A DNA stretch of 33,716 bases from Pseudomonadota bacterium. GTDB lineage: Bacteria; Pseudomonadota; Gammaproteobacteria; Burkholderiales; Rhodocyclaceae. The notes beneath the pieces are model-generated. The model worked only from the letters and a program-made list of their open reading frames with translations. It was not told the origin of the DNA and ran no database searches. Both the position numbers and the translations under genes were made by a program. The stretch lies in NCBI GenBank assembly GCA_018262235.1, contig JAGTRY010000034.1, forward strand, positions 1-33,716, given 5' to 3'. Every line of letters begins with the position of its first letter. Positions within the stretch are counted from its first letter, which is position 1. Below are positions 97 to 30,047 of the stretch, in pieces.

Positions 97-909
97 CTAG
101 CGGTATGGGCGCGGCGCCGCCAGCCGCATCCCGACAAGCACGATCCCCAGCGTCGCCCCATATACCAGCACGTGCATGCCGGTCGGCTCGGCATCGTAGC
201 CAGCCAGGGCATGCAAGGCCGTGCCCAGCGCAGAATCCGCCGAGATCAGGCCGGAACTGTCCCACAGCGGGTCGGCCAGAGCCGGCAACCAGCCCGCCTG
301 GATCAGGAAGCGCGCCGCCTGCCCGGCCATGCCGGCCGTCAGCAGCAGCACCAAGCCGGCCGTCACATTGAAGAACCAGCGTAGCGGGATGCGCAACAAG
401 CCGGCATACAAGCCCACGCCGACCAGCACGCCAGCCAGCAGCCCGAGCAATGCCCCACCCATCATCGACGCCAGCGTGGTACCGCCCTGCGCGAAGATAC
501 CGTACAGGAACAGGACGACTTCCGAGCCCTCGCGCAGTACCGCCATACCGATCACCGCCAGCAGCACGGTCACCGGTTCGCTACCGGTCTGCACGGCTTG
601 CCCCATGCGGGAGGCACGGCTGGCCATCTCGCGCCCGTGGCGGGCCATCCAGATGTTGTGCCAGGCCAGCATCAACACCGCAAGCATCAGGATCGCGGCA
701 TTGAAAAGCTCCTGCCCCACGCCTTGCGCCCATTCGCCGATCACCCCGGCAAACATCGCCACCAGACAGGCGCCGGCCACACCCAGGGTTACGCCGCAGG
801 CAATCCAGCGGCCGCGATGGCGCACCCCGACCAGTGCGGCAGCAATGATCCCGATGATCAGGGCAGCTTCGAGGACTTCACGAAAAACAACGATGGCACT
901 GCTGAACAT
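97..909 (-). CDS. efeU: FTR1-family high-affinity iron permease (EfeU/FtrC-like)
   Basis: A 270-residue polytopic inner-membrane protein with about seven hydrophobic segments. It carries the two REXXE iron-binding motifs that define the FTR1/EfeU family: R10-E-V-L-E14 in the first segment and R126-E-G-S-E130 in the fourth. Members move iron, usually oxidised from Fe(II) during transport, across the cytoplasmic membrane. The length matches bacterial EfeU/FtrC proteins. It lies 90 bases downstream of a periplasmic cupredoxin on the same strand, and the pair is probably one transcript from the Fur-controlled divergent promoter near 1390. EfeB (DyP peroxidase), P19/FtrA and a ferredoxin FtrD are not visible, so this is a minimal version unless partners lie beyond the left edge. 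Family assignment is firm; the oxidation partner is unknown. Confidence 0.93.
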   Translation of the reverse strand: MFSSAIVVFREVLEAALIIGIIAAALVGVRHRGRWIACGVTLGVAGACLVAMFAGVIGEWAQGVGQELFNAAILMLAVLMLAWHNIWMARHGREMASRASRMGQAVQTGSEPVTVLLAVIGMAVLREGSEVVLFLYGIFAQGGTTLASMMGGALLGLLAGVLVGVGLYAGLLRIPLRWFFNVTAGLVLLLTAGMAGQAARFLIQAGWLPALADPLWDSSGLISADSALGTALHALAGYDAEPTGMHVLVYGATLGIVLVGMRLAAPRPYR

Positions 910-999
910 GGCTTACCCCATGAGGCCGCAGAAAAATGCAGCAAAGTGGAACGGAGCGTTTCCGGCTGGAGAACGCCAGCGGCCGCATTTCTGTTGCCG

Positions 1000-1320
1000 T
1001 CATTCGGCAATCAGGACGCCCTGGGCGGTTTTCTCGTTGAACTCGCCAAAGAAGGAATACGTGCCGGGTTTGAGCGGACCGACCATCACGACGCCCTTGC
1101 TCTTGCCAGGAATCACCTTTTCCGCACGCAGCTTCTTGCTCTCGAATTCTTCGGGCGTGGCATCCCGGTTATCCACCACGATTCGGATCCGCTGCCCGGC
1201 CGAAACGCGCAGTTCAGCAGGCTGGAACAGGTGGTTTTCGATCACCAGCGTCACGTCCTGGTCCGCAAGTGCCAGACCGGAAGCCAGCATCAAGGTCGCG
1301 GCAACAAAGCTTCTGCGCAT
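1000..1320 (-). CDS. Periplasmic EfeO-type cupredoxin-like iron protein
   Basis: I chose the ATG at 1320 because a GGAGAG ribosome site lies just upstream and the protein then starts with a clean Sec signal peptide (MRRSF...ALA). A GTG/ATG further upstream would add 15 non-signal residues. The 106-residue product resembles the cupredoxin domain found in EfeO and FtrB. It has an acidic stretch TPEEFES and the C-terminal motif GPLKPGTYSFFGEF. No cysteine is present in the mature part, so the usual type-1 copper Cys-His-Met site is absent; carboxylates may bind iron instead (inference). The M75 peptidase-like domain of full EfeO is missing. Its gene precedes the FTR1 permease, and it probably delivers or oxidises periplasmic iron for that permease. 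Confidence 0.82.
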   Translation of the reverse strand: MRRSFVAATLMLASGLALADQDVTLVIENHLFQPAELRVSAGQRIRIVVDNRDATPEEFESKKLRAEKVIPGKSKGVVMVGPLKPGTYSFFGEFNEKTAQGVLIAE

Positions 1321-1363
1321 GAGGACTCTCCATTCCATCAATTCATTGCTTGGGGTTTGATGC

Positions 1364-1393
1364 ACTCTATTTGCGAATGATTATTAATGTCAA
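1364..1393 (-). promoter_or_regulatory. Divergent promoter for cupredoxin-permease pair with Fur box
   Basis: On the minus strand a perfect -35 TTGACA (1388-1393) is followed after 18 bases by TAGAGT (1364-1369). Within the spacer, 1372-1386 reads TGCGAATGATTATTA and matches the 7-1-7 Fur consensus TGATAATNATTATCA at 11 of 14 defined positions. Repression by iron-loaded Fur is the natural reading given the iron genes on both sides. Seen directly: the motifs. Inferred: Fur binding. Confidence 0.6.
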
Positions 1394-1397
1394 CCAC

Positions 1398-1435
1398 TTG
1401 ACTTTCATTGTCTTGCAAGATGAGAATGATTCCCA
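1398..1435 (+). promoter_or_regulatory. Promoter of the siderophore receptor operon with Fur box
   Basis: TTGACT (1398-1403) is followed after 18 bases by GAGAAT (1422-1427). A second Fur-like palindrome, TGAGAATGATTCCCA at 1421-1435, covers the -10. Six of its seven arm pairs are self-complementary, and it matches the Fur consensus at 11 of 14 positions. Its centre is 49 bases from the other Fur box, so the two promoters can be repressed together. Confidence 0.6.
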
Positions 1436-1482
1436 ATAAAACCAAGACTTGCCCCAAACCCATTCCCCAGGGAGATTTTTCG

Positions 1483-3645
1483 ATGCGTTTTTCCCCCGAA
1501 GTCCTGAACAAGGCGCCCTCGCGCCTGTTGTCCGCACTCGCCACCGGTGCCATGGTGAGCAGTGCCGCAGCCGCTGAACCGCAGGCAGCCCAGTCCAGCG
1601 CCGAGGCCGACCGGACGCTCAAACCTGTCGTCGTCCGGGATTCACGCGACAGCGCCCGTCCCGAGCGGGGCTACAAGGCCGAAGTCACCACCATCGGCAA
1701 ACAGGCCGAAACCCCCAAGGACGTTCCGCAGTCGATCACCATCATCCCGGAGAAACTGATCTCGGATCGCAAGGACGACAGCCTCAAGGCAGCGCTGCAG
1801 AACGTCGCCGGGCTGACTTTCAACGCTGGCGAAGGCGGTCGCATCGGCGACAACATCAACCTGCGCGGTTACGTGGCTTATGGAGATCTCTACCAGGACG
1901 GCCTCCGGGACATCGCCCAGTACAACCGTGAAGTCTTCAACCTGGAACGTGTCGAAGTGCTGCGCGGCGCCTCCTCGATGCTCTTCGGCCGCGGCTCGAC
2001 GGGTGGCGTAATCAACCAGGTCAGTAAAACGCCCTTCCTCGCCGATGAAAACGTGGTGAGTACCACCGTCGGCAACCACGACTATTTCCGCAGCACGACC
2101 GACCTGAACAAGGTCGTCGGCGAAACCTCGGCAATCCGCCTCAACACGATGTACACCACATCAGGTGGCGATCCGGACGGCGCCGACAGCAAACGCTATG
2201 GGGTTGCACCGAGCTTCAGCACCGGCATCGGCACCGCCAACCAGTTCGACGTCAGCTACTACCATCTGAACTACGACGACACCCCCAACTATGGCTTCGG
2301 TTGGGCCGGCGGGCGCCCGGTGGATAGCGCCGCGGACAAGTTTTACGGACTCGCCAGCGACTTCCAGCGTGATTCGGCGGATGTCGTCACCGGCAAATAC
2401 ACGCACCGCTTCGACAACCGGACCCAGCTCAGCTCGGTACTGCGCTACGGCGAATACAAACGCGACCTGTGGGCCACCACGGCGCGCCCGAGCGGCAGCG
2501 TGGTCACCGACAGCAGCAGTTTCTCGCGTGGCAACCAGCGCCGCGGCGGGGAAGAGCAGCACGTGTTCAGCCAGACCGATCTCTCCTCGCGATTCGAAGC
2601 ACTGGGCATGAAACACGAAGCCCTGGCCGGGATGGAACTGGCCCACGAGCAATCGACCCGCTGGAGCTACGCTGCAACCCCATCCAAGACCGCAGGCATT
2701 GTCGGCGACCCGGGGGCGAGCAGCGATCAAGGCCTCGCCCGCAATGGCATGCGCACAAGCATGAACGACTTCACAGCCAGCACTGTCGGCCTGTATACGC
2801 AGGACATCATCGAATTCCTCCCGGGCTGGAAGCTGCTCGCCGGCACCCGCTGGGACCGTTTTGCGGGCGATTACCGCTCGGGTACCGGGAGTCAGGCCTC
2901 GCGCCTGGAACGCCACGACTATCTGTGGAGCTGGCGCAGCGGGCTGATCCACGCGCTGACCGAAGAGGTGAATGTGTATGCCACGTACGGCTCCTCGTTC
3001 AATACCTCGGGCGACCTCTACCAGTACGACTCACGGACCGCCAATACGCCCCCCGAACAAAGCCGCAACCTTGAACTGGGGACCAAAGCCGAATTGCTCG
3101 ACGGCCAGCTGTCTGCCCGCGTGGCGCTGTTCCGCACCGAGAAATACAACGAGCGCAGCACGGACACCGACACCACGGACAGCACCTACCTGCTCTCCGG
3201 CAAGCGCCATACCGATGGCTACGAATTCGAGATCAACGGCCATCTGAGCGACAAGTGGGAGGTCTTCTTCAACTACGCCCACATGTGGTCGAACATCGAC
3301 AAGGCAGGCTCCTCAGCGAGTGCGTCCGCGACAGTGGGACGCCCGGCCGCCAACACGCCGACCAACACCGGCAGTCTGTGGAGCACCTACCAGTTCCTGC
3401 CGAACTGGACCTTCGGCGCCGGCGCAGATGGCCAGAGCAAGCGCAACCCTTCGCACAACTCGTCGAACTGGGCGCCGGGCTATGTGAAGTATGACGCCAT
3501 GATCAAGTACGACCAGCCGCGCTACAGCGTCCAGCTCAATCTCAACAACTTGCTCGACAAGGTCTACTGGCAGGCGGTCTACAACGGCCATGCCATCGCC
3601 GGCCCCGGTCGCACCATCCAGCTCACCACCGAGCTGAGGTTCTGA
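1483..3645 (+). CDS. TonB-dependent siderophore receptor (PiuA/Fiu-like)
   Basis: Start at the ATG at 1483, preceded by CAGGGAGA and followed by a signal peptide ending near SSAAAA. The upstream in-frame start at 1408 would bury the signal and run through the Fur box. The 720-residue product has a TonB-box-like segment (LKPVVV), a plug domain (VPQSITIIP; VEVLRGASSMLFGRGSTGG) and a long 22-strand-type barrel ending in a C-terminal phenylalanine, as expected for an outer-membrane protein. Family knowledge: such receptors import ferric siderophores using TonB energy. Linkage to a piuC gene suggests the PiuA/Fiu catecholate branch. The actual substrate cannot be read from sequence. Confidence 0.9.
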   Translation: MRFSPEVLNKAPSRLLSALATGAMVSSAAAAEPQAAQSSAEADRTLKPVVVRDSRDSARPERGYKAEVTTIGKQAETPKDVPQSITIIPEKLISDRKDDSLKAALQNVAGLTFNAGEGGRIGDNINLRGYVAYGDLYQDGLRDIAQYNREVFNLERVEVLRGASSMLFGRGSTGGVINQVSKTPFLADENVVSTTVGNHDYFRSTTDLNKVVGETSAIRLNTMYTTSGGDPDGADSKRYGVAPSFSTGIGTANQFDVSYYHLNYDDTPNYGFGWAGGRPVDSAADKFYGLASDFQRDSADVVTGKYTHRFDNRTQLSSVLRYGEYKRDLWATTARPSGSVVTDSSSFSRGNQRRGGEEQHVFSQTDLSSRFEALGMKHEALAGMELAHEQSTRWSYAATPSKTAGIVGDPGASSDQGLARNGMRTSMNDFTASTVGLYTQDIIEFLPGWKLLAGTRWDRFAGDYRSGTGSQASRLERHDYLWSWRSGLIHALTEEVNVYATYGSSFNTSGDLYQYDSRTANTPPEQSRNLELGTKAELLDGQLSARVALFRTEKYNERSTDTDTTDSTYLLSGKRHTDGYEFEINGHLSDKWEVFFNYAHMWSNIDKAGSSASASATVGRPAANTPTNTGSLWSTYQFLPNWTFGAGADGQSKRNPSHNSSNWAPGYVKYDAMIKYDQPRYSVQLNLNNLLDKVYWQAVYNGHAIAGPGRTIQLTTELRF

Positions 3646-3666
3646 TCCGCATCATCAGGAAAAGCC

Positions 3667-4347
3667 ATGCTGATTCACGCCCGAAACGTTCTCTCCCCTG
3701 CCGAACTGCAGCGCATCCGTGCGCTGCTGGATGCGGCCGACTGGGCCGATGGCCGCATCACGGCCGGAACCCAGTCGGCACAGGTCAAACGCAACCAGCA
3801 GTTGCCGGAAACCGCTGCACAGATCGGTGAAGCGCGGGCCATCGTGCGCGCCGCCCTGGCGCGTAATGCCCAGTTCTTCTCGGCGGCCCTGCCGCGCGAG
3901 ATCTACCCGCCGCTGTTCAATCGCTACGAAGGCGGTCAGCACTTCGGCAATCACGTCGACAACGCAGTGCGTCTGTTACCCGACGGCAGCCGTCACCTGC
4001 GTACCGACGTATCGGCCACGCTGTTCCTCACCGAACCCGGAAGTTATGATGGCGGCGAACTGGTGATTGACGACACCTACGGCGAACAGCGCGTGAAATT
4101 CGCCGCGGGCGACATGGTGGTCTACCCCTCGACCAGCCTGCATCGCGTCGAGCCGGTCACCCGCGGTGCCCGCGTGTCCTGCTTCATGTGGATCCAGAGC
4201 ATGGTGCGCGAGGACGCCAAGCGCGCCCTGCTGCACGAGATGGATCTGGCGATTGCCACCCTGCGTGCCGAACACGGCGACACCGAGGCAGTCATCAGCC
4301 TGACCGGCAATTATCACAACCTGCTGCGCATGTGGGCCGAGCTGTGA
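3667..4347 (+). CDS. piuC: PiuC/YbiX-type Fe(II)/2-oxoglutarate dioxygenase
   Basis: A 226-residue protein with the PKHD-hydroxylase core. The metal triad is H96-x-D98 (in GNHVDN) and H159 (in TSLHRVEP). An arginine in TRGAR is the expected 2-oxoglutarate contact. The length equals that of E. coli YbiX and Pseudomonas PiuC. The gene lies 21 bases after the receptor and overlaps tonB by one base (TGATG), so it belongs to the operon. The family is consistently paired with catecholate siderophore receptors, but its substrate is not established. No signal peptide is present, so it is cytoplasmic. Confidence 0.92.
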
Positions 4348-5033
4348 TGCACGTCCTCAACGCCCCGCTGCGCACCGAACGCGCCGTCAGTCTTGCATCC
4401 GTCATTGGCCTGCATGCGCTGGCCGCCCTGGCATTGCTGAGCCTGGTCCAGCCGGCAATCATGACCTGGCAGGCCGAGCCGGTGCACATCGAGCTGGTCA
4501 CCGCCGCGCCGCCGGCGCCCACCCCGGCTGAAGCGCCCAAGCCGCTGCCCACCAAGGCTGCACCGCCCCGCAAACCTGCCCCGCAGCCCACCGTAGCGCC
4601 TGCAGTGGTGCAGACTGCCGCCCCCGTACCCGCCGAAACACCGCATATCAGCGCCGCCCCCGCCCCCCAGGCCCCCCCGCGCGTCGCGCCCACCGAGAGC
4701 ACGCCGCCCAGCCATCCGCCAGCAGCCGCAGGTCCTGGTACCGAAACCGTCCAGGCACCGCGTTTCGATGCGGACTATCTGCGTAACCCGTCCCCCGCCT
4801 ACCCGCCCGCTTCACGCAGTCTGGGCGAAGAAGGCCGGGTGATATTGCGCGTACAGGTCAGCGAAGACGGTCAGGCGCAGCAGGTTCTGGTCGACGTCAG
4901 CAGCGGTTCCTCGCGCCTGGATCGCGCAGCCCGCGAAGCCGTTGCGCAATGGCGCTTCGTGCCTGCCCGCCAGGGCCAGCAAGCACTGGTCGCCTGGGTC
5001 AAGGTCCCCATTATTTTTGAACTGAAACGCTGA
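4347..5033 (+). CDS. tonB: TonB energy transducer
   Basis: The ATG at 4347 overlaps the piuC stop codon. The 228-residue protein has a short cytoplasmic head and one membrane anchor near residues 14-36. A long Pro/Ala/Lys-rich periplasmic spacer follows (about residues 48-135, many PAP/KP repeats). It ends in a TonB C-terminal domain that begins at NPSPAYPPASRSLGEEG and includes WRFVPAR. It transmits proton-motive energy from ExbBD to outer-membrane receptors. Being in the same operon as one receptor, it is probably a dedicated TonB. The proline-rich spacer is also very GC-rich compared with neighbouring genes, which is normal for such linkers. Confidence 0.93.
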   Translation: MHVLNAPLRTERAVSLASVIGLHALAALALLSLVQPAIMTWQAEPVHIELVTAAPPAPTPAEAPKPLPTKAAPPRKPAPQPTVAPAVVQTAAPVPAETPHISAAPAPQAPPRVAPTESTPPSHPPAAAGPGTETVQAPRFDADYLRNPSPAYPPASRSLGEEGRVILRVQVSEDGQAQQVLVDVSSGSSRLDRAAREAVAQWRFVPARQGQQALVAWVKVPIIFELKR

Positions 5034-5073
5034 CAACAGCCTTCCCCACAAACTTCATCCACGAGAACACACC

Positions 5074-5796
5074 ATGCCAAACCAGACCCTGGGTTTTGCC
5101 CACTTTCTTACTCAAGCCGATGGCCTCGGCAAGGCCTTGTTCATTCTGCTCATCGCCATGTCACTGGCATCCTGGTACTTCATCCTCACCAAAGCCATCA
5201 TCAAACTGCGCCAGCGCCGCGCTTCGGACAAGTTCGTCAGCCTGTTCTGGAATGCCGCCTCACTCGATGAGGTACGTAACGAAATCAACACCCATGGTGC
5301 CAACGAGCCCTTCTCCCACCTGACCAGTCACGCCCTGTTTGCGCGCGAACACCACCAGCGCACCGGCGGGGGCAAACTCGGCGAAGCCGGCTCCCTGGGT
5401 GATTTCCTCACCCGCAGCATGCGCAAGGTCATTGACGAAGAAACCGCCTCGCTCGAAAACGGCCTGACCGTACTCGCCACGGTGGGCGCGACCGCGCCCT
5501 TCGTTGGCCTGCTCGGTACCGTGTGGGGCGTATATGGTGCCCTGATTGCCATCGGCATGAGCGGTGCGGGCACCCTGGACAAGGTTGCTGGTCCGGTCGG
5601 TGAAGCCCTGGTGATGACCGGTCTGGGGCTCGCTGTGGCAATCCCCGCCGTGGTGGCCTACAACAGCTTCACACGCCACAACCGCCTGACGCTTTCGCGC
5701 CTGGATGCCTTCGCCCACGACCTGTTTGCCTACCTCACCACGGGTGTGCATCACGCGCAGAACGGTAAGCTGCACAACCTGCAAGGAGTCGCGTGA
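5074..5796 (+). CDS. exbB: ExbB proton-channel subunit (MotA/TolQ/ExbB family)
   Basis: A 240-residue protein with three membrane segments: residues about 20-40 (LFILLIAMSLASWYFIL), then the family signature region TVLATVGATAPFVGLLGTVW, then EALVMTGLGLAVAIPAVVAY. The order and the GLLGTVWG motif are typical of ExbB/TolQ. Direct linkage to tonB and exbD favours ExbB over TolQ. With ExbD it forms the inner-membrane motor that energises TonB. It starts 40 bases after tonB and overlaps exbD by one base. Confidence 0.93.
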   Translation: MPNQTLGFAHFLTQADGLGKALFILLIAMSLASWYFILTKAIIKLRQRRASDKFVSLFWNAASLDEVRNEINTHGANEPFSHLTSHALFAREHHQRTGGGKLGEAGSLGDFLTRSMRKVIDEETASLENGLTVLATVGATAPFVGLLGTVWGVYGALIAIGMSGAGTLDKVAGPVGEALVMTGLGLAVAIPAVVAYNSFTRHNRLTLSRLDAFAHDLFAYLTTGVHHAQNGKLHNLQGVA

Positions 5797-6221
5797 TGGC
5801 CTTCGGCGGTTTTTCCAAGGAAGCCAATACGGCACCGATGGCCGAGATCAACATGGTGCCGCTGATCGACGTGATGCTGGTGCTGCTGGTGATCTTCATC
5901 CTCACGGCACCGCTGCTCACGCACGCCGTGAAGGTTGAACTGCCGCGCACCACCAGCGCGGAAAACCGGGTCCAGGCGGAACGCATCGAAATCGCCCTGA
6001 CACCCGATTCCGCGGTCTTCTGGAATGGCGAAAAGCTGGACATGGCGCAGCTGGACGAACGCCTGCACGCCGCCGCAGCCACGGTCACCGATGCGGCGAG
6101 CGCCCCGGAACTGCATCTGCGTGCCGACAAGACCACGCCTTACGATGCCGTCGCCAAGGTGCTTTCCGCCGCGGCACGGGCAGGGCTGGGCAAGATCGCC
6201 TTCGTGAGCCAGCCGGAATGA
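5796..6221 (+). CDS. exbD: ExbD proton-channel subunit
   Basis: I use the ATG at 5796, which overlaps the exbB stop (TGATG) and has AAGGAG seven bases upstream; a GTG one codon earlier is possible. The 141-residue protein has a short cytoplasmic N-terminus and a single membrane helix with the essential aspartate in PLIDVMLVLLVIF. A periplasmic domain ends in the family-typical K-I-x-F-V. It partners ExbB to drive TonB. Its stop lies only seven bases from the stop of the converging chemoreceptor gene, with no hairpin in between, so the operon has no obvious private terminator. Confidence 0.93.
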   Translation: MAFGGFSKEANTAPMAEINMVPLIDVMLVLLVIFILTAPLLTHAVKVELPRTTSAENRVQAERIEIALTPDSAVFWNGEKLDMAQLDERLHAAAATVTDAASAPELHLRADKTTPYDAVAKVLSAAARAGLGKIAFVSQPE

Positions 6222-23300: not shown

Positions 23301-23681
23301 ATGATCACCACCGACATCATGCCTGAACGTGTGGAAATGCGAGCCTATGGCACCGTCACGCTGTCCGACTGCAAAGCCTTTGAAGAGGCATCCAACTATC
23401 GTGTGCTGTTCAATCGTCCGATTGATCTGCTGCTCGATCTGCGCAGCATGACCGGCTATTCACTGGACGTCGCCATCGAGGAATGGCGCTACGCACGTGC
23501 CCATCCAAGTGATTTCAGGCGCATCGCGGTATTGACCGACGATCAGTTCGTAACCTGGGGCGCATGGTTCTCGCAATTCGTCGTGGATGCCGATATCCGG
23601 ATCTTCGAAACCGAACGGGCAGCCCGGCGCTGGCTGGATGACAACAGCCTGCTTGAAGAAAGCGGCAGCACCCTGCACTGA
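23301..23681 (+). CDS. SpoIIAA-like STAS/SEC14-domain protein
   Basis: A 126-residue soluble protein with GAGGAG shortly before the ATG. The pattern LLLDLRSMTGYSL, then RRIAVLTDDQFVTWG and a final ARRWL helix, resembles the SpoIIAA-like (DUF3478) family. That family shares the STAS fold of anti-sigma antagonists, though most members are of unknown function. The classical phosphorylated serine motif (D-S-S-G) is not present; the equivalent loop reads TGYSLD. The gene converges on the PP2C phosphatase gene of the large signalling operon, which makes it a possible but unproven partner. Confidence 0.75.
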   Translation: MITTDIMPERVEMRAYGTVTLSDCKAFEEASNYRVLFNRPIDLLLDLRSMTGYSLDVAIEEWRYARAHPSDFRRIAVLTDDQFVTWGAWFSQFVVDADIRIFETERAARRWLDDNSLLEESGSTLH

Positions 23682-23734: not shown

Positions 23735-25321
23735 TTACTCGGGCAGATCCAGCAGCAGCATTGAAATGTCATCATGACCGGCAAGATCCCCCAGATGACG
23801 ATGCAAGGCCAGCCGCAAAGCATCCAGACGATTCATCGAACCAGCATCCAGAATCGCACGTTGCACACTTTCAAATCCGAACGCGATTCCCGCACCACCT
23901 TCTGCCTCGATCAAGCCGTCCGAACACAACAACAGCTCCGAATGTTCGGTCCATTCCAAAGGCTGGATCACGACATCCTCGTCCTGCCAGGTCTGGATTC
24001 CCAGTGGCAATTGGTCTGCCAGGAAACGTTGCGCGACATGACCATCCAGTCCGATCCTCAACACATCCGGCACACCACCGAGCCACAAGGCGCCTGTACG
24101 CACTTCCTGATCAAGAACCACCAATGCCGCAGAAACGAAACGGCCGATCGGCAGTAATTCCGTCAGGGCATTGTTGAGCATCAGGACCATCCGCCGCAGC
24201 GGCATTTCATCTTCTACCGCACGATAGAAATCATTCACGATAGCCAGTCCGCTCATCGCCGCTGCCAGGCCGTGCCCGGTCGCATCCGCCAGCATCGCGT
24301 AAAGCTTGCCACTGCGCGAACGCGCTGCCAGCACAATATCGCCCGAGAAGCGATGGGTCGGCATCACGCAATGCCGTACCCCGCTTTGTTCCAGCGCATC
24401 GCGCCGGATATGGCGCTCCATGATGTCTTTAGCCAGTTCAGCTTCGGCTTCGGCTTCGTCGTGGTATTGCTGAAGACGCGCAGCATTGTCGGCAAGTTGA
24501 TGCTCCACCCGCTTGCGTTCGCTGATGTCGCGTACCACGGCAATGAACAGGCGCTGATCCGCAACGGGCAATTCGCTGATACAGATCTCGCTGGGGAAGC
24601 GACGCCCGTCGAGCCGGCGCCCGATCACTTCACACAAACTGCCGATGAACCGTGGGGCATTACCACTCAGATGTGCCATAAAGGCTTCTGCCCAAGGCGC
24701 TGCCAAGGGCTGATCAAGCAGCAAGCTGCGGATCTCCACGCCTTGCAGATCCTGTTCCCTGCATCCAAAAATACCCGCCGCAGAACGATTGGCGCCAACG
24801 ATCCTGAACGTGGCATCAAAGGTCAGGATGCCATCCACCACGGCGTCAGACACCGCGGCTTCGCGCTGGCGAGCTTCCTCGCGACTGACCTGAAATTCCA
24901 GGGCACGCGCCAGGTTCTGCATCTTTGCCGCAAACACCTGATATGACAAAGGTTTGTTCAGATAGTCATCCGCGCCGGCTTCCAGCCCTCGCACGATGTC
25001 ATACTCAGCGTCCATGGCCGAAACGATGACGATCGGCACCCAGCGATCTCCACCAAGAGCCCGGATATGCCGAATGGCTTCAAATCCATCCATCTTCGGC
25101 ATCATCAGATCCATCAGGACAATATCCGGACGATCACTCTTGTAAAGATCCAGCGCCTGCTCGCCATCTTCGGCCATCAGGATCTGGAATTCGAGGCGAT
25201 TCAGATAGGCGCGCAGCAATGCCCGATTGGCCTGGGTATCATCGACAACCAGCACGCGAAAGTTCCGGAAACTCATCTTGTGCGTCCCATCACGATTCTG
25301 CTCACGTTGCATGATGTTCAC
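23735..25321 (-). CDS. Receiver-PAS-PP2C (RsbU-like) response regulator phosphatase
   Basis: A 528-residue three-domain protein. The receiver at about 22-135 has the acidic pair D27-D28, phospho-acceptor D71 (IVLMDLMMPKMDG) and K123 (LNKP). A PAS domain spans about 150-270. After a short coiled region, a SpoIIE-type PP2C phosphatase spans about 320-527 with the metal residues in DATGHG, LCSDG and GHDDIS. Such proteins dephosphorylate STAS antagonists when their receiver is phosphorylated. The first in-frame start is GTG at 25321, overlapping the previous stop; ATGs at 25312 or 25276 are possible alternatives. It is the last gene of the three-gene operon. Confidence 0.9.
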   Translation of the reverse strand: MNIMQREQNRDGTHKMSFRNFRVLVVDDTQANRALLRAYLNRLEFQILMAEDGEQALDLYKSDRPDIVLMDLMMPKMDGFEAIRHIRALGGDRWVPIVIVSAMDAEYDIVRGLEAGADDYLNKPLSYQVFAAKMQNLARALEFQVSREEARQREAAVSDAVVDGILTFDATFRIVGANRSAAGIFGCREQDLQGVEIRSLLLDQPLAAPWAEAFMAHLSGNAPRFIGSLCEVIGRRLDGRRFPSEICISELPVADQRLFIAVVRDISERKRVEHQLADNAARLQQYHDEAEAEAELAKDIMERHIRRDALEQSGVRHCVMPTHRFSGDIVLAARSRSGKLYAMLADATGHGLAAAMSGLAIVNDFYRAVEDEMPLRRMVLMLNNALTELLPIGRFVSAALVVLDQEVRTGALWLGGVPDVLRIGLDGHVAQRFLADQLPLGIQTWQDEDVVIQPLEWTEHSELLLCSDGLIEAEGGAGIAFGFESVQRAILDAGSMNRLDALRLALHRHLGDLAGHDDISMLLLDLPE

Positions 25322-26220
25322 GCCTGATCAGTACCAAGAGGAAAACGCACAACGACGGTATTGCCATTGCCCTGATAGGCCAGATCTGAAAACGCCATCT
25401 GCTTGGAGACCGCTATCCCGCGACCATTCGGAGCAAACGCCCGATCCGGCGACATGACCAGAAACTCTTCCCAGCGGAATCCAGGCCCCTGATCGCTAAT
25501 TGCGACAGTCATCATCTTGTCCTCGCACTGCACCTTGACGTGGACACGTTTGTCTTGATGCTCAGGCAACTCCAGTCGACGGTGGACTTCTTCCAACCAA
25601 CGCTCCTCGCTCTTGAGCCGGGCCTTGGTCTGGAAATCGATCCCCAGATTGCCATGCTCGATCCCATTGACGAGCAGTTCCGCCAGGCCCATCGCCACGG
25701 TCTCGCCATCCTGTGCCGTCAGCGCCAGCAACCCTGCCACCGCCTCGGCCTCATCAAGCGTCGCCAGCACAAACTGCGCTTCCTTGATCAGGAGTACCGC
25801 ACGGGAATGATTCGCCATGCGCTGGGAAACATCTGCCCATCGCGCCCGGTCATGCAGGGCGGCACGCACGATGGCGAGCAGGGCCTCGGAACGGAAAGGT
25901 TTCGTCAGGTAATAATGCGCACCAGCAGCCAGACCTTCGCTAACCTGCTCGGGACTGGCCGCAGCTGTCTGCATGATCACCGGCAGATGCTTCATCCGGG
26001 CATCTGCCTTGATCCGCCGGAGCAACGACAGACCATCGAGCTTGGGCATCATGCGATCCATGACCACCACATCAAAATCGTAAGGGCTCGCGTCCAGCGT
26101 ATGCCATGCCAATTCCGGGTCCTCGAAAAAAGTCAGCTGATAGCCTGTATCAGACAGATATTCCCCGATAATTTCGAGGTTCAGCGGTTCATCATCCAGC
26201 ACCAGCAAGGATGCAGTCAT
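25318..26220 (-). CDS. Receiver fused to RsbW-like anti-sigma-type ATPase
   Basis: A 300-residue protein. The receiver at about 4-120 has D55 (VVVMDRMMPKLDG) and K107 (LTKPF). The C-terminal half is a HATPase_c_2 domain like that of RsbW/SpoIIAB serine kinases. Its N-box holds E181 and N185 (ELLVNGIEHGN), then ISDQGPGF and PNGRGIAVSKQMAFSDLAYQGNGN. No HisKA dimerisation domain is present, so it is not an ordinary histidine kinase. It could phosphorylate or bind a STAS antagonist, or sequester a target, under control of the receiver (inference). Its ATG overlaps the stop of the kinase gene and its stop overlaps the start of the PP2C gene. Confidence 0.87.
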   Translation of the reverse strand: MTASLLVLDDEPLNLEIIGEYLSDTGYQLTFFEDPELAWHTLDASPYDFDVVVMDRMMPKLDGLSLLRRIKADARMKHLPVIMQTAAASPEQVSEGLAAGAHYYLTKPFRSEALLAIVRAALHDRARWADVSQRMANHSRAVLLIKEAQFVLATLDEAEAVAGLLALTAQDGETVAMGLAELLVNGIEHGNLGIDFQTKARLKSEERWLEEVHRRLELPEHQDKRVHVKVQCEDKMMTVAISDQGPGFRWEEFLVMSPDRAFAPNGRGIAVSKQMAFSDLAYQGNGNTVVVRFPLGTDQA

Positions 26221-29200
26221 GCATCGTCCCTCATATCAATGTTTTCGGACCCGATATTTGCCTGACGCAACAAAGGAAGTCGCATCACGAACTCGGCGCC
26301 ACCCTCCGGTCGGTTACGCGCCAGGATCTGCCCCCGATGCGCCTGGACAATTTCGCGACAGATTGCCAGACCCAAACCTGTTCCGCCAGCAACAGAACGG
26401 GTCAGGCTGCTCTGGGTGAACCGGTCGAAAATCTGTTCCAGCTCTTCGGGAGGGATTCCCGGTCCTTCGTCTATCACGGCCACTTCCACCACACCGCCCT
26501 CAACAGATTCGCCAGCACGCCGCCCCTGGCCGTCCATCAGGATGGTGCTTCTCAGCGTCACCCTGCTGCCTTCCGGCGCGAACTTGACGGCATTGGACAG
26601 CAGATTGCGCAGGACCTGGCCTATGCGGGCGCCATCAATCCAGATCATTGGCAGGCGTGCCGCATCGATCCGGCTCAATGCCAGCTTGCGTGCAGCAAAC
26701 AGCGCCTCAAATTCGCATGTCACATTATCCAGCAGCCCGGGAAGATCTGTAGGCTGCAGCATCAGACTCATGTAACCGGCTTCCAGTTTGGCAATATCCA
26801 GAAGCTCGTCCAGCAACCCGAGCAGGCGTTCGCCACTTTCGGCTATCCGTGCAAAGTAGCTCCCAACTTTCTCGGCCCCCCACTGCCCGTCACGCGTCAC
26901 CCCCAAACGGGCAAAACTCAGGATGGCATGCAAAGGCGTACGCAATTCATGTGACAACTGGGCAATGAAATCGGATTTGGCAGCACTGCTGCGCTCGGCG
27001 GCCTCCTTGGCCTGCAACAGATCGGCGGTCTGCTCGAACACCAGTTCACGGAGCTGATCACGGTGGCGTAACAATTCATCCTCTGCCAGCTTTTGTTCGA
27101 CCAGATCCTGTACCAGCAACCAGTAAGCCAGGCTCGGTTCACCACGCCCCACCAGTACACCACTGACCATCACCGGCAGCTCCTGCCCATCAGAACCCAG
27201 CAGACAGAGCTCAAAAGGCTGCATCACACCAGCATGCCGGATCTCTTCAATCTTCGCATCGCCCTGCGCCTGGAATCGAACGGGCACGATATCCTGATAA
27301 TGCATCGTGCACATCTGCGTTTCGTCACGTCCAAGCAACCGCTGCAGGCAGGGGTTGACCTGCAAGAACCGTCCCTCCCGATCCAGCAGGGTGATCCCCA
27401 GTGGCGCGTTATGAACCAGCGTATCGAGTCGTTCCAGGACGTGGATCTGGGCTTTCTCGGCCTCTCGCAAAGGCGTCACATCCTGGTTGAGGCCAATGAT
27501 CACACGCTTGCCATCTGCATCCCGGACCAGTTTTTTGTGTGACAGGATGTTGCGCGGACGCCCCCGATGATCACGCATCAATAACTCACTGCTGAGCAGT
27601 TCGCCATCGTCCCGTTCAAGCAACTGTCGGTCCAGTGCTTCCAGCTCCATCACCATCGATTCAGGCATCAAAGCCTCTGCGCGCCTGCCCGAAAAAGCAT
27701 GCTTGGGTACACCATAGAACTCGCTGAGCGCCATGTTGGCCATCACGTAACACAGTCGCTCATCCTTGACGTACGTTGCAAACGGCAAGGCATCGAACAC
27801 TGTTTGCAGGAACTCTCCGCTGCGGGTCTGGCGCAGCAGGCTTTCCGTCAGCGCGGCCTCTTTTTCCAGCAGGTCGGTCACATCGCTGTTGGAGGTGACG
27901 ATCAGCCGTGCCCCGTCAGGATCCAGGCACACCAATTTGCGCAGATGAACCTGGTGGGTTTTGCCATCAGCATAGACAACTGGAACATCCCGTTCGCTCA
28001 TCACGCCTGGACCGATCGCAAAAAGACGATCATCGTTGCGCACGGTTTCCTGTGCAATCTCGGGCAGGTTGAAATCCCAGGTCGTTTTCCCGATCATCTG
28101 GTCGGGGGTCATGCCATGCGCACTGGCCAATGCGCGATTAGCCATCACATAGACATGCTGTTCGTTTTTTACTGCAATAGGGGTAGGAATGGCATCAAAG
28201 ATGTCTTGCAGGAAAGCCCGGTTACGCGTCTGACGCAATGCGGTTTCACGCAACTCTCGTTCCAACATCCGCGTTTCGGTCACATCGAAGGTCACCCCGA
28301 TCACCACCGGCTCGCCATCCGTACCCTCTCCCAGAACCTTGCGGATCAGGGTCTGGTGAGGATTGCCATGTGCATCGTGAAGGACATGCTCACTCTCAAT
28401 CACGGAGCGCCCTGCCATGCCCGAAAAGATTGAATCTTCTTCACGCTCAATCGCTTCCGCGACCTCCGGATCGGCATAATGAAACGCCGTCGAACCGATG
28501 ATTCTTTCGGGATCACTCCCGTGGAAGGTCGCGTGTGCCAGGTTGGTCATCACATACCGATGCTGTCTATCCTTGACGAACATCGGATGCGGCAAGGCAT
28601 CGAAGAGTTGTTGCAAAAACTGGCGCAGACGCGTTTGCTGTTTCAGTGCTTCACGCAACTCGATCTCGGTACGGCGCAGGCCAGTGATCTCGAAATTCGA
28701 CCCGACAATGATGCTCTTGCCATCCACATCCGTACACAAAGCCTTGGTCACCGCCCAATACCGCAACGCGCCCGTCTTCCTGTCCGGAAGGCAATCCTCC
28801 TTGCTGATCACCTCACCCGCAAAGATGCGCTGATCTTCTTCTTCGATGGCAACACCGTGCTCATCCCCGAACAACTCCCGCGAAGACAGGCCTATCATGT
28901 CTTCGACACGCATCCCCCATTGCTCGGCAATGGCCACATTGGCCATCACATAACGGCTCTCCGCATCTTTCACGTAAATCGGGTGGGGAATCGTACGGAT
29001 CAGGCGCTGCACAAAAGCCTCAACGTTCATCGAAAGCTGCGCCATGCGCATGGCGTATTCACGCAATTCCGTCTGGTCTTCGTAGGTGCTCACCACGACA
29101 TGCTGTCCACTGCGATCCACACAACGACTCTTGGTAATCCGCAGGAAGACCCGCCGTTGCGTCCGTGCGATTTCGAACCAGTCCTCCACCACGTGTGGAC

Positions 29201-30047
29201 AACCGGTTTCAAGCGCCAGACGATCCAGTGCTTCCATCCGCTCGGCCACCTCGCTATGCACGATCTGGCTGGCCCGTTTGCCCATCAGATCAGCGGGCTG
29301 CATCTGTATGCCCTGGCAATAGGCATGATTGGCGAGAATCAGAACACCTTTGGCGTTCTTGACCGACATCGGCAAGGGCAGGGCATCCACGACACCTTCC
29401 ATGAATCCCTGATAGAGCCCGCGCTCCCGCGTCAGCTCGATTTCATCGGTAATGTCCGACAAGGCGCCTGTGATGAATTGCCGATCACTGGACACGCTGG
29501 CGCGTATCCGCAACCAGCGCTTTTGTCCACCCGCCAAAAAAATCGAAACCAATTCGTCAAACCGCTCGACTTCATTCCAGGCAGCACGCACAGCTGAAAG
29601 CAGGCGCCGCCGCTGTTCGGTACTCAGGCACCGCAACAGGCTCCGCAGCGGAGATCCCTCGGCACGGGGCTTTCCGATCAGAAGCAGACACCGGTCCGAA
29701 CAGAACAAGGTCTTGCGACTCGCGTCGAATTCCCAGACGCCATCCTGTGTCGCGTCCAGTGCCCGCTCCAGACGGGCACGACCATATATTTGCGCGGCAG
29801 ATATTTCCCGGGCACGCGATTCGGCCCACTGCTGACGATCAAACAGGCCCCAAGACAGGACAAACAGGGCGCCCGCAATCACTCCCGTCAGCCCCCAAAG
29901 GTAACCACTGATGGCCAGCAGAAAACCACCCAGGCTGGCCACTGCCGCCAATCCACAGGCGAACAACCGCAATCCGGTCGACACGCCCTCAACACGCGCT
30001 TGTGCTGGCGACACAGAACTGTCGAACGAAGTTTTCGGGCTAAGCAT
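26217..30047 (-). CDS. Large membrane histidine kinase with seven PAS domains
   Basis: A 1276-residue protein. Two membrane helices lie at about 25-70, nearly back to back, so little is exposed to the periplasm. PAS1 spans about 90-205. Five tandemly related PAS domains follow, beginning near residues 215, 345, 477, 612 and 746; each opens with a pattern like FLQ-hFDALP-P--VKD---YVMAN. A seventh PAS lies at about 870-985. After a coiled coil comes a HisKA domain with phospho-acceptor H1033 (LSHELRTPLH), then a HATPase with LRNLLSNAVKF, DEGPGIPP and GTGLGLA. There is no receiver of its own; two receivers are encoded directly downstream. The ATG at 30047 has no clear ribosome site, so a slightly later start is possible. 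Confidence 0.92.
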   Translation of the reverse strand: MLSPKTSFDSSVSPAQARVEGVSTGLRLFACGLAAVASLGGFLLAISGYLWGLTGVIAGALFVLSWGLFDRQQWAESRAREISAAQIYGRARLERALDATQDGVWEFDASRKTLFCSDRCLLLIGKPRAEGSPLRSLLRCLSTEQRRRLLSAVRAAWNEVERFDELVSIFLAGGQKRWLRIRASVSSDRQFITGALSDITDEIELTRERGLYQGFMEGVVDALPLPMSVKNAKGVLILANHAYCQGIQMQPADLMGKRASQIVHSEVAERMEALDRLALETGCPHVVEDWFEIARTQRRVFLRITKSRCVDRSGQHVVVSTYEDQTELREYAMRMAQLSMNVEAFVQRLIRTIPHPIYVKDAESRYVMANVAIAEQWGMRVEDMIGLSSRELFGDEHGVAIEEEDQRIFAGEVISKEDCLPDRKTGALRYWAVTKALCTDVDGKSIIVGSNFEITGLRRTEIELREALKQQTRLRQFLQQLFDALPHPMFVKDRQHRYVMTNLAHATFHGSDPERIIGSTAFHYADPEVAEAIEREEDSIFSGMAGRSVIESEHVLHDAHGNPHQTLIRKVLGEGTDGEPVVIGVTFDVTETRMLERELRETALRQTRNRAFLQDIFDAIPTPIAVKNEQHVYVMANRALASAHGMTPDQMIGKTTWDFNLPEIAQETVRNDDRLFAIGPGVMSERDVPVVYADGKTHQVHLRKLVCLDPDGARLIVTSNSDVTDLLEKEAALTESLLRQTRSGEFLQTVFDALPFATYVKDERLCYVMANMALSEFYGVPKHAFSGRRAEALMPESMVMELEALDRQLLERDDGELLSSELLMRDHRGRPRNILSHKKLVRDADGKRVIIGLNQDVTPLREAEKAQIHVLERLDTLVHNAPLGITLLDREGRFLQVNPCLQRLLGRDETQMCTMHYQDIVPVRFQAQGDAKIEEIRHAGVMQPFELCLLGSDGQELPVMVSGVLVGRGEPSLAYWLLVQDLVEQKLAEDELLRHRDQLRELVFEQTADLLQAKEAAERSSAAKSDFIAQLSHELRTPLHAILSFARLGVTRDGQWGAEKVGSYFARIAESGERLLGLLDELLDIAKLEAGYMSLMLQPTDLPGLLDNVTCEFEALFAARKLALSRIDAARLPMIWIDGARIGQVLRNLLSNAVKFAPEGSRVTLRSTILMDGQGRRAGESVEGGVVEVAVIDEGPGIPPEELEQIFDRFTQSSLTRSVAGGTGLGLAICREIVQAHRGQILARNRPEGGAEFVMRLPLLRQANIGSENIDMRDDA

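Follow-up and report, generated by a model that had tools for sequence, protein, structure and literature searches.

What do three overlapping genes of a Rhodocyclaceae genome, which place a sensor kinase beside two regulators with opposing enzymatic domains, act upon? The genes lie on the minus strand of the window, the whole 33,716-nucleotide stretch of DNA analyzed here (contig JAGTRY010000034.1, assembly GCA_018262235.1). They encode a membrane histidine kinase, a response regulator that joins a receiver to an RsbW-type ATPase (REC-RsbW) and a second response regulator that ends in a PP2C phosphatase (REC-PAS-PP2C). In Bacillus, the serine kinase RsbW and the PP2C phosphatase RsbU oppose each other on the STAS antagonist RsbV. 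The triad shares this opposition on a STAS protein, if our reading is right, but the Bacillus RsbW works without receivers and its operon includes a sigma factor. An earlier reading made from the sequence alone had left the target as unknown and perhaps unusual. The comparative evidence points instead to a STAS protein of the HsbA type whose gene lies in a flagellar/chemotaxis cluster. We consider it probable (roughly 65%) that the operon encodes a counterpart of the single-chain regulators HsbR of Pseudomonas aeruginosa and CrsR of Shewanella oneidensis that is split in two, has a receiver on each part and acts in trans on an HsbA-like STAS antagonist.

Anatomy and conservation of the operon

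The three proteins were assigned from the open reading frame (ORF) list, Pfam and motif checks. The kinase (1276 amino acids, 26217-30047) begins with two hydrophobic stretches and carries seven PAS domains, every fragment of which scored above the cut-off of at least one PAS model. HisKA (1023-1091) and HATPase_c (1138-1259) follow, with the phosphoacceptor H1033 at codon 26949-26951, and a search of the kinase with domain models gave no match to a receiver. REC-RsbW (300 amino acids, 25318-26220) has an N-terminal receiver (Response_reg 6-118; D55, codon 26056-26058, and K107) and a C-terminal RsbW-type ATPase (HATPase_c_2 154-292; N-box residue N185 and the G-boxes) in one chain, both above the Pfam cut-off. 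REC-PAS-PP2C (528 amino acids, 23735-25321) consists of a receiver (Response_reg 23-130; D71, codon 25109-25111), a PAS domain (163-268) and a SpoIIE PP2C domain (337-526). The phosphatase is of the RsbU/SpoIIE type (PF07228, 85.1 bits against a cut-off of 25), and its metal-site motifs DATGHG, SDG and GHDDIS are intact. The kinase and REC-RsbW genes overlap at ATGA, the two regulator genes at GTGA. Every residue and junction named in the sequence-only reading was found in place, and its description of three overlapping genes with intact catalytic motifs stands. A promoter and terminator scan gave no clear excess over shuffled sequence.

D55, N185 and the glycine motifs were invariant in 90 of 90 full-length REC-RsbW sequences, and this conservation takes the observation made at the operon beyond chance. 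The REC-RsbW family profile also matched PDB entry 9QIH over its full length (residues 4-293, E 8.8e-28). This is one of six entries deposited with the work on Leptospira LvrC; by its domains it is LvrC, and the PDB list labels it SenB.

The triad recurs in other genomes, among them Uliginosibacterium gangwonense DSM 18521 (record NZ_KB892835.1). Full-length REC-RsbW was found in 69 of the 150 family genomes sampled, presence being defined as a best E < 1e-40 (the next best was 1.3e-27). G009, G057, G095, G108 and G143, which have partial RsbW matches and none of which has the STAS protein described below at threshold, were scored as lacking it. Regions were fetched for 68 of the REC-RsbW genomes, the window serving for our own, and gene neighbors at GC-rich loci were taken from six-frame profile matches. 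The PP2C regulator gene directly follows REC-RsbW in 56 of the 69 genomes, and a kinase matching that of the window directly precedes it in 49. The triad is complete in 46 genomes and incomplete in 23, and 10 of the 56 RsbW-PP2C pairs lack a kinase of this kind next to them. In a midpoint-rooted tree of frame-checked REC-RsbW sequences, the window falls within a set of 20, all of which have both neighbors (support 83). Two genomes have the regulators fused: in G135 (L078:9193-11277) both form one chain, REC-RsbW-REC-PP2C, and in G040 (L124) both domains lie in one frame.

These counts bear on the simplest alternative, that the three proteins are independent regulators which share no target and sit together through chance or joint transcription. 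The incomplete units in 23 of the 69 genomes would suit it. The overlapping genes, the 46 complete triads, the tree set in which both neighbors are always kept and the fusion of the two regulators in G040 and G135 argue against it, and we regard it as very improbable. The sequence-only reading had proposed that one kinase serves two receivers which drive opposing enzymes. The anatomy, the recurrent triad and the fused regulators favor that arrangement; the unit is not, however, an obligatory one. The same three-gene order was found when it was sought in other genomes.

A candidate target in a flagellar gene cluster

The sequence-only reading had also remarked that no classical STAS antagonist lies in the operon. 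This is right for the operon only, as classical STAS genes sit elsewhere in the genome, a draft of 3.96 Mb with 199 contigs and a completeness of 97%. STAS searches of this genome yielded five small STAS ORFs, two SulP-like proteins and one protein of 405 amino acids. One of the small proteins, at C97:9068-9370, carries the motif DSSALG with Ser56 and is encoded between CheB and CheV, in the order FlhD, FlhC, MotA, MotB, Hpt, CheR, CheB, STAS, CheV, CheV, CheY (names read from the sequences). It passes the antagonist model TIGR00377 (67.5 bits, cut-off 53.45) as well as PF13466 and PF01740, and with its DSS motif it has the features of an anti-sigma factor antagonist. All 90 locus sequences have Ser56, the set including some genes that are represented twice. 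The genome thus possesses an HsbA-like STAS protein with a phosphorylatable serine, as a partner switch requires, the likeness to HsbA being one of model match and motif. A single SpoIIE match was detected in the genome, inside the triad operon. The best HATPase_c_2 match was REC-RsbW itself; 31 weaker ones lie in frames of 310-1185 amino acids, and three of these are above the Pfam cut-off. In the family sample, G029 has an expanded set of partner-switch parts: SpoIIE and the STAS query each matched it eight times.

The presence of this C97-type STAS protein follows that of REC-RsbW closely. In the family, where STAS presence was set at a best E <= 1.7e-20 (the next was 5.1e-10), 67 of the 69 genomes that have REC-RsbW also carry the protein, as do 7 of the 81 that lack REC-RsbW (Fisher 1e-31, common descent ignored). 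Among the 132 FliG-positive family genomes, STAS was present in 64 of 66 with REC-RsbW and in 5 of 66 without. Seven genera vary for REC-RsbW, and STAS co-varies with it in six; the seventh keeps STAS (G090, 86% complete). STAS and REC-RsbW are independent of flagella in genera 7 and 19, where G006 and G126 carry the two but no FliG, and G119, G019 and G080 carry FliG but neither of the two. FliG varies together with both in genera 2 and 59. A second sample of 300 genomes of the order, 291 of them outside the family, was searched with a profile E of up to 1e-12 for STAS; G222, which has the ATPase half only, was scored as lacking REC-RsbW. Outside the family, STAS was found in 60 of 62 genomes with REC-RsbW, which came from 16 family codes, and in 30 of 229 without.

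A direct neighborhood of the two was found in G071, where a STAS gene of the C97 family lies 13 bases upstream of a gene for REC-RsbW, and genes for REC-PP2C and CheB are found nearby. The single SpoIIE match in the operon, the co-occurrence of STAS and REC-RsbW in two samples and this adjacency together suggest the C97 STAS protein as the target. The other small STAS proteins offer a different answer. Three of them, C58, C70 and C117, are encoded ahead of CheA-like genes, and as targets they would link the switch to chemosensory arrays. That the genome has three such genes and that C70 carries DSSG speak for this possibility. C58 (DTAG) and C117 (DIAG) have no serine at the site, however, and the STAS gene beside REC-RsbW in G071 belongs to the CheB-type family rather than to the CheA-linked ones; we think these targets improbable. 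The fifth protein, C69, is MlaB-like and encoded beside an ABC transporter.

The STAS locus itself was surveyed in 73 of the 74 family genomes with STAS; for 13 of these the flanks spanned only 1.5 kb. The G071 locus was read by hand. CheB directly precedes STAS in 65 of the 73. In 15 a PP2C gene directly follows STAS, and an RsbW domain is in view in 13 of these; the one case analyzed by Pfam (L168) has the order REC-PP2C-RsbW, which is the HsbR architecture. Where STAS has no adjacent HsbR-like (PP2C) gene, REC-RsbW is present in 56 of 58 genomes, against 10 of the 15 with such a gene (Fisher p 0.003). The two exceptions are G090 and G138, and the contig of G138 starts at STAS. Outside the family, 27 of the 30 STAS genomes without REC-RsbW have a PP2C gene directly after STAS; of the others, G151 has a divergent PP2C gene beside it, and G247 and G268 have none in view. 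Nearly every C97-type STAS gene seen thus has an HsbR-like partner at its locus or REC-RsbW elsewhere in its genome; outside the family, many have the two together.

A proposed two-receiver counterpart of HsbR

In P. aeruginosa, HsbR carries REC-PP2C-RsbW in one chain (PMC6482189). Its STAS partner HsbA is phosphorylated at Ser56, and hsbA lies near CheR-like and CheW-like genes; HsbA is reported to bind FlgM when unphosphorylated, and HsbR and HsbD when phosphorylated (PMC6482189, PMC5085249). HsbR-HsbA and CrsR-CrsA resemble the proposed system in that a receiver controls an RsbW kinase and a PP2C phosphatase acting on a STAS protein, and the HsbA phosphosite bears the same number as the candidate serine of the C97 protein. 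The differences lie in the arrangement. HsbR and CrsR are single chains with one receiver, whereas here two proteins with two receivers are encoded in an operon with a receiverless kinase, far from the STAS gene. HsbR is described as fed via HptB from several hybrid kinases; here there is one operon kinase without a receiver. Since receiver, PP2C and RsbW are divided between two separate ORFs, the system would work like HsbR but is not HsbR.

The PP2C-domain tree separates most triad phosphatases from the HsbR-like ones and gives no backing to the triad as a direct split of present-day HsbR; the PP2C domains of the two fused regulators, L078 and L124, group together (support 78).

We infer the following mechanism, partly by analogy. 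The PAS kinase would autophosphorylate at H1033 and pass phosphate to both D55 and D71. Phosphorylation of the receivers would then shift the balance between the two enzymes, probably lowering the RsbW-type kinase activity and raising that of the PP2C phosphatase, as in HsbR. Both enzymes would act in trans on Ser56 in the DSSALG motif of the C97 STAS protein, as comparative genomics suggests. The phosphorylation state of STAS would in turn set its partner, for which FlgM and RpoS, both encoded in the genome, are the leading candidates from HsbA and CrsA. When dephosphorylated at Ser56, STAS would bind a partner such as FlgM, and the switch would decide whether the cell swims or adopts a sessile or stress state.

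A different role for the RsbW domain has to be weighed here. The main work of REC-RsbW may be that of an anti-sigma factor under receiver control, binding, for example, RpoS directly, with STAS as the antagonist and the phosphatase as the enzyme that resets it. Direct sigma binding has been proposed for LvrC and is one of the models for TciR, another REC-RsbW protein. Furthermore, the RsbW domain of P. aeruginosa HsbR is reported to bind RpoS (PMC6482189), and RpoS is encoded in our genome. This role alone, however, leaves unexplained why 56 of 69 genomes retain an opposing receiver-PP2C gene alongside receiver-RsbW. It is also compatible with a split counterpart of HsbR, as CrsR is described as doing both. 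As the main function we consider it unlikely.

REC-RsbW regulators are already in print, namely TciR (2025) and LvrC (2026). TciR of Vogesella indigofera is needed together with the kinase TciK for indigoidine production; its authors knew of no functionally characterized protein with such an architecture and report the lack of an RsbV homologue (PMC12826045). Compared by description, TciK-TciR likewise sets a histidine kinase beside a REC-RsbW regulator, but its operon, as reported, consists of two genes and includes none for a PP2C protein, unlike the triad. LvrC is phosphorylated by the histidine kinase LvrB, and its crystal structure has been solved (PMC13269768). It is again a REC-RsbW protein, and 9QIH matches our profile; its kinase, however, is itself receiver-controlled, the organism is distant (Spirochaetes), and the available part of the report mentions no PP2C partner or STAS target. 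SypE-SypA of Vibrio fischeri likewise combines an RsbW-like kinase, a receiver and a PP2C phosphatase on a STAS protein (PMC12826045). As described there, SypE differs from the triad in being one chain with another domain order, at a biofilm polysaccharide locus. In the open-access literature, as far as its texts were available and with most subscription papers outside this scope, we found no kinase/REC-RsbW/REC-PP2C operon and no STAS target for REC-RsbW.

REC-RsbW regulators are widespread, and the two found in print have no known target. Their near-obligate link to one STAS family of a flagellar cluster provides a named, testable substrate. A broader proposal, to which we give even odds, is that in Betaproteobacteria one flagellar HsbA-type hub answers to interchangeable controllers. 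One would be a single-chain HsbR encoded at the same locus; the other would be a kinase encoded at a distance, with two regulators, a serine kinase and a phosphatase, each phosphorylated separately. TciR-type regulators would then have their missing target in that hub as well. The triad would also be a natural partner switch with separate receivers on the kinase and phosphatase arms, in contrast to the one-receiver HsbR. With a receiver on each arm, kinase and phosphatase could be adjusted at different times or by different sensors, something that a single shared receiver does not permit. Relatives with split, fused and single-chain forms allow comparisons on why two inputs are kept.

Several observations weigh against a split counterpart of HsbR acting on the C97 protein. 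No PP2C gene follows REC-RsbW in 13 of the 69 genomes, and the co-occurrence counts take any full-length REC-RsbW, within a triad or not, with Fisher values that ignore common descent. Two of the 69 family genomes with REC-RsbW lack STAS (G016, 79% complete, and G085, in 1240 contigs), as do two of the 62 outside it (G152 and G434). In our own genome, C70 likewise has a DSSG motif. Moreover, the same-genus genomes G122, G074 and G011 have 2, 2 and 3 SpoIIE matches, so that the single phosphatase is atypical for the genus and could, in a draft genome, reflect a gap; in G011 a second STAS gene lies less than 1 kb from one of the SpoIIE matches. Finally, of the 15 family genomes in which an HsbR-like gene was seen, 8 carry the RsbW-PP2C pair too (p 0.053 for exclusion), and outside the family 8 of 10 genomes sampled from the 60 with REC-RsbW and STAS have an HsbR-like gene as well. 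Outside the family, REC-RsbW is therefore no simple replacement and may have another target. A strict replacement of HsbR by the RsbW-PP2C pair is accordingly weakly supported within the family and not supported outside it.

Genes around the operon

The gene next to the phosphatase gene, convergent with it on the plus strand (23301-23681), encodes a SpoIIAA-like protein of 126 amino acids with a PF11964 match. Its STAS-antagonist-like fold and conserved serine make it another conceivable target. It adjoins the phosphatase gene in six genomes of two genera, although CbiX and TcdA are on the opposite side in one of them, and the serine of an SLD motif is kept in 6 of 6 relatives, near the position of the STAS phosphosite (an equivalence judged by eye). 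The gene is, however, convergent and outside the operon, and within the fetched regions it was found in only 6 of the 56 RsbW-PP2C genomes. We doubt that it is the target.

The genes upstream of the triad are CbiX, TcdA-like (ThiF) and metallo-beta-lactamase. In 30 of the 56 RsbW-PP2C genomes, CbiX occurs within 12 kb. NasT (REC-ANTAR-like) and NrtABC-like genes lie 3' of the phosphatase gene in 14 of the 56 (among them L052, L053, L055, L056, L067, L075, L086, L091 and L099). A link to nitrate assimilation was considered and set aside, as the window has no nas genes at that place. An RND operon (MFP, RND and a 74-amino-acid protein) lies nearby in 18 of the 56 genomes. Near the triad, a second RsbW protein is encoded ahead of such an RND efflux operon at L055:4179-5081, there with a weak receiver match (20.5 bits), and also in L057, L058 and L096-L098. 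Elsewhere in the window, positions 97-6221 hold a likely iron-uptake cluster, named by reading the sequences without a family search: an FTR1-like permease, a cupredoxin-like protein, a TonB receptor, a PiuC-like hydroxylase and TonB-ExbB-ExbD-like genes.

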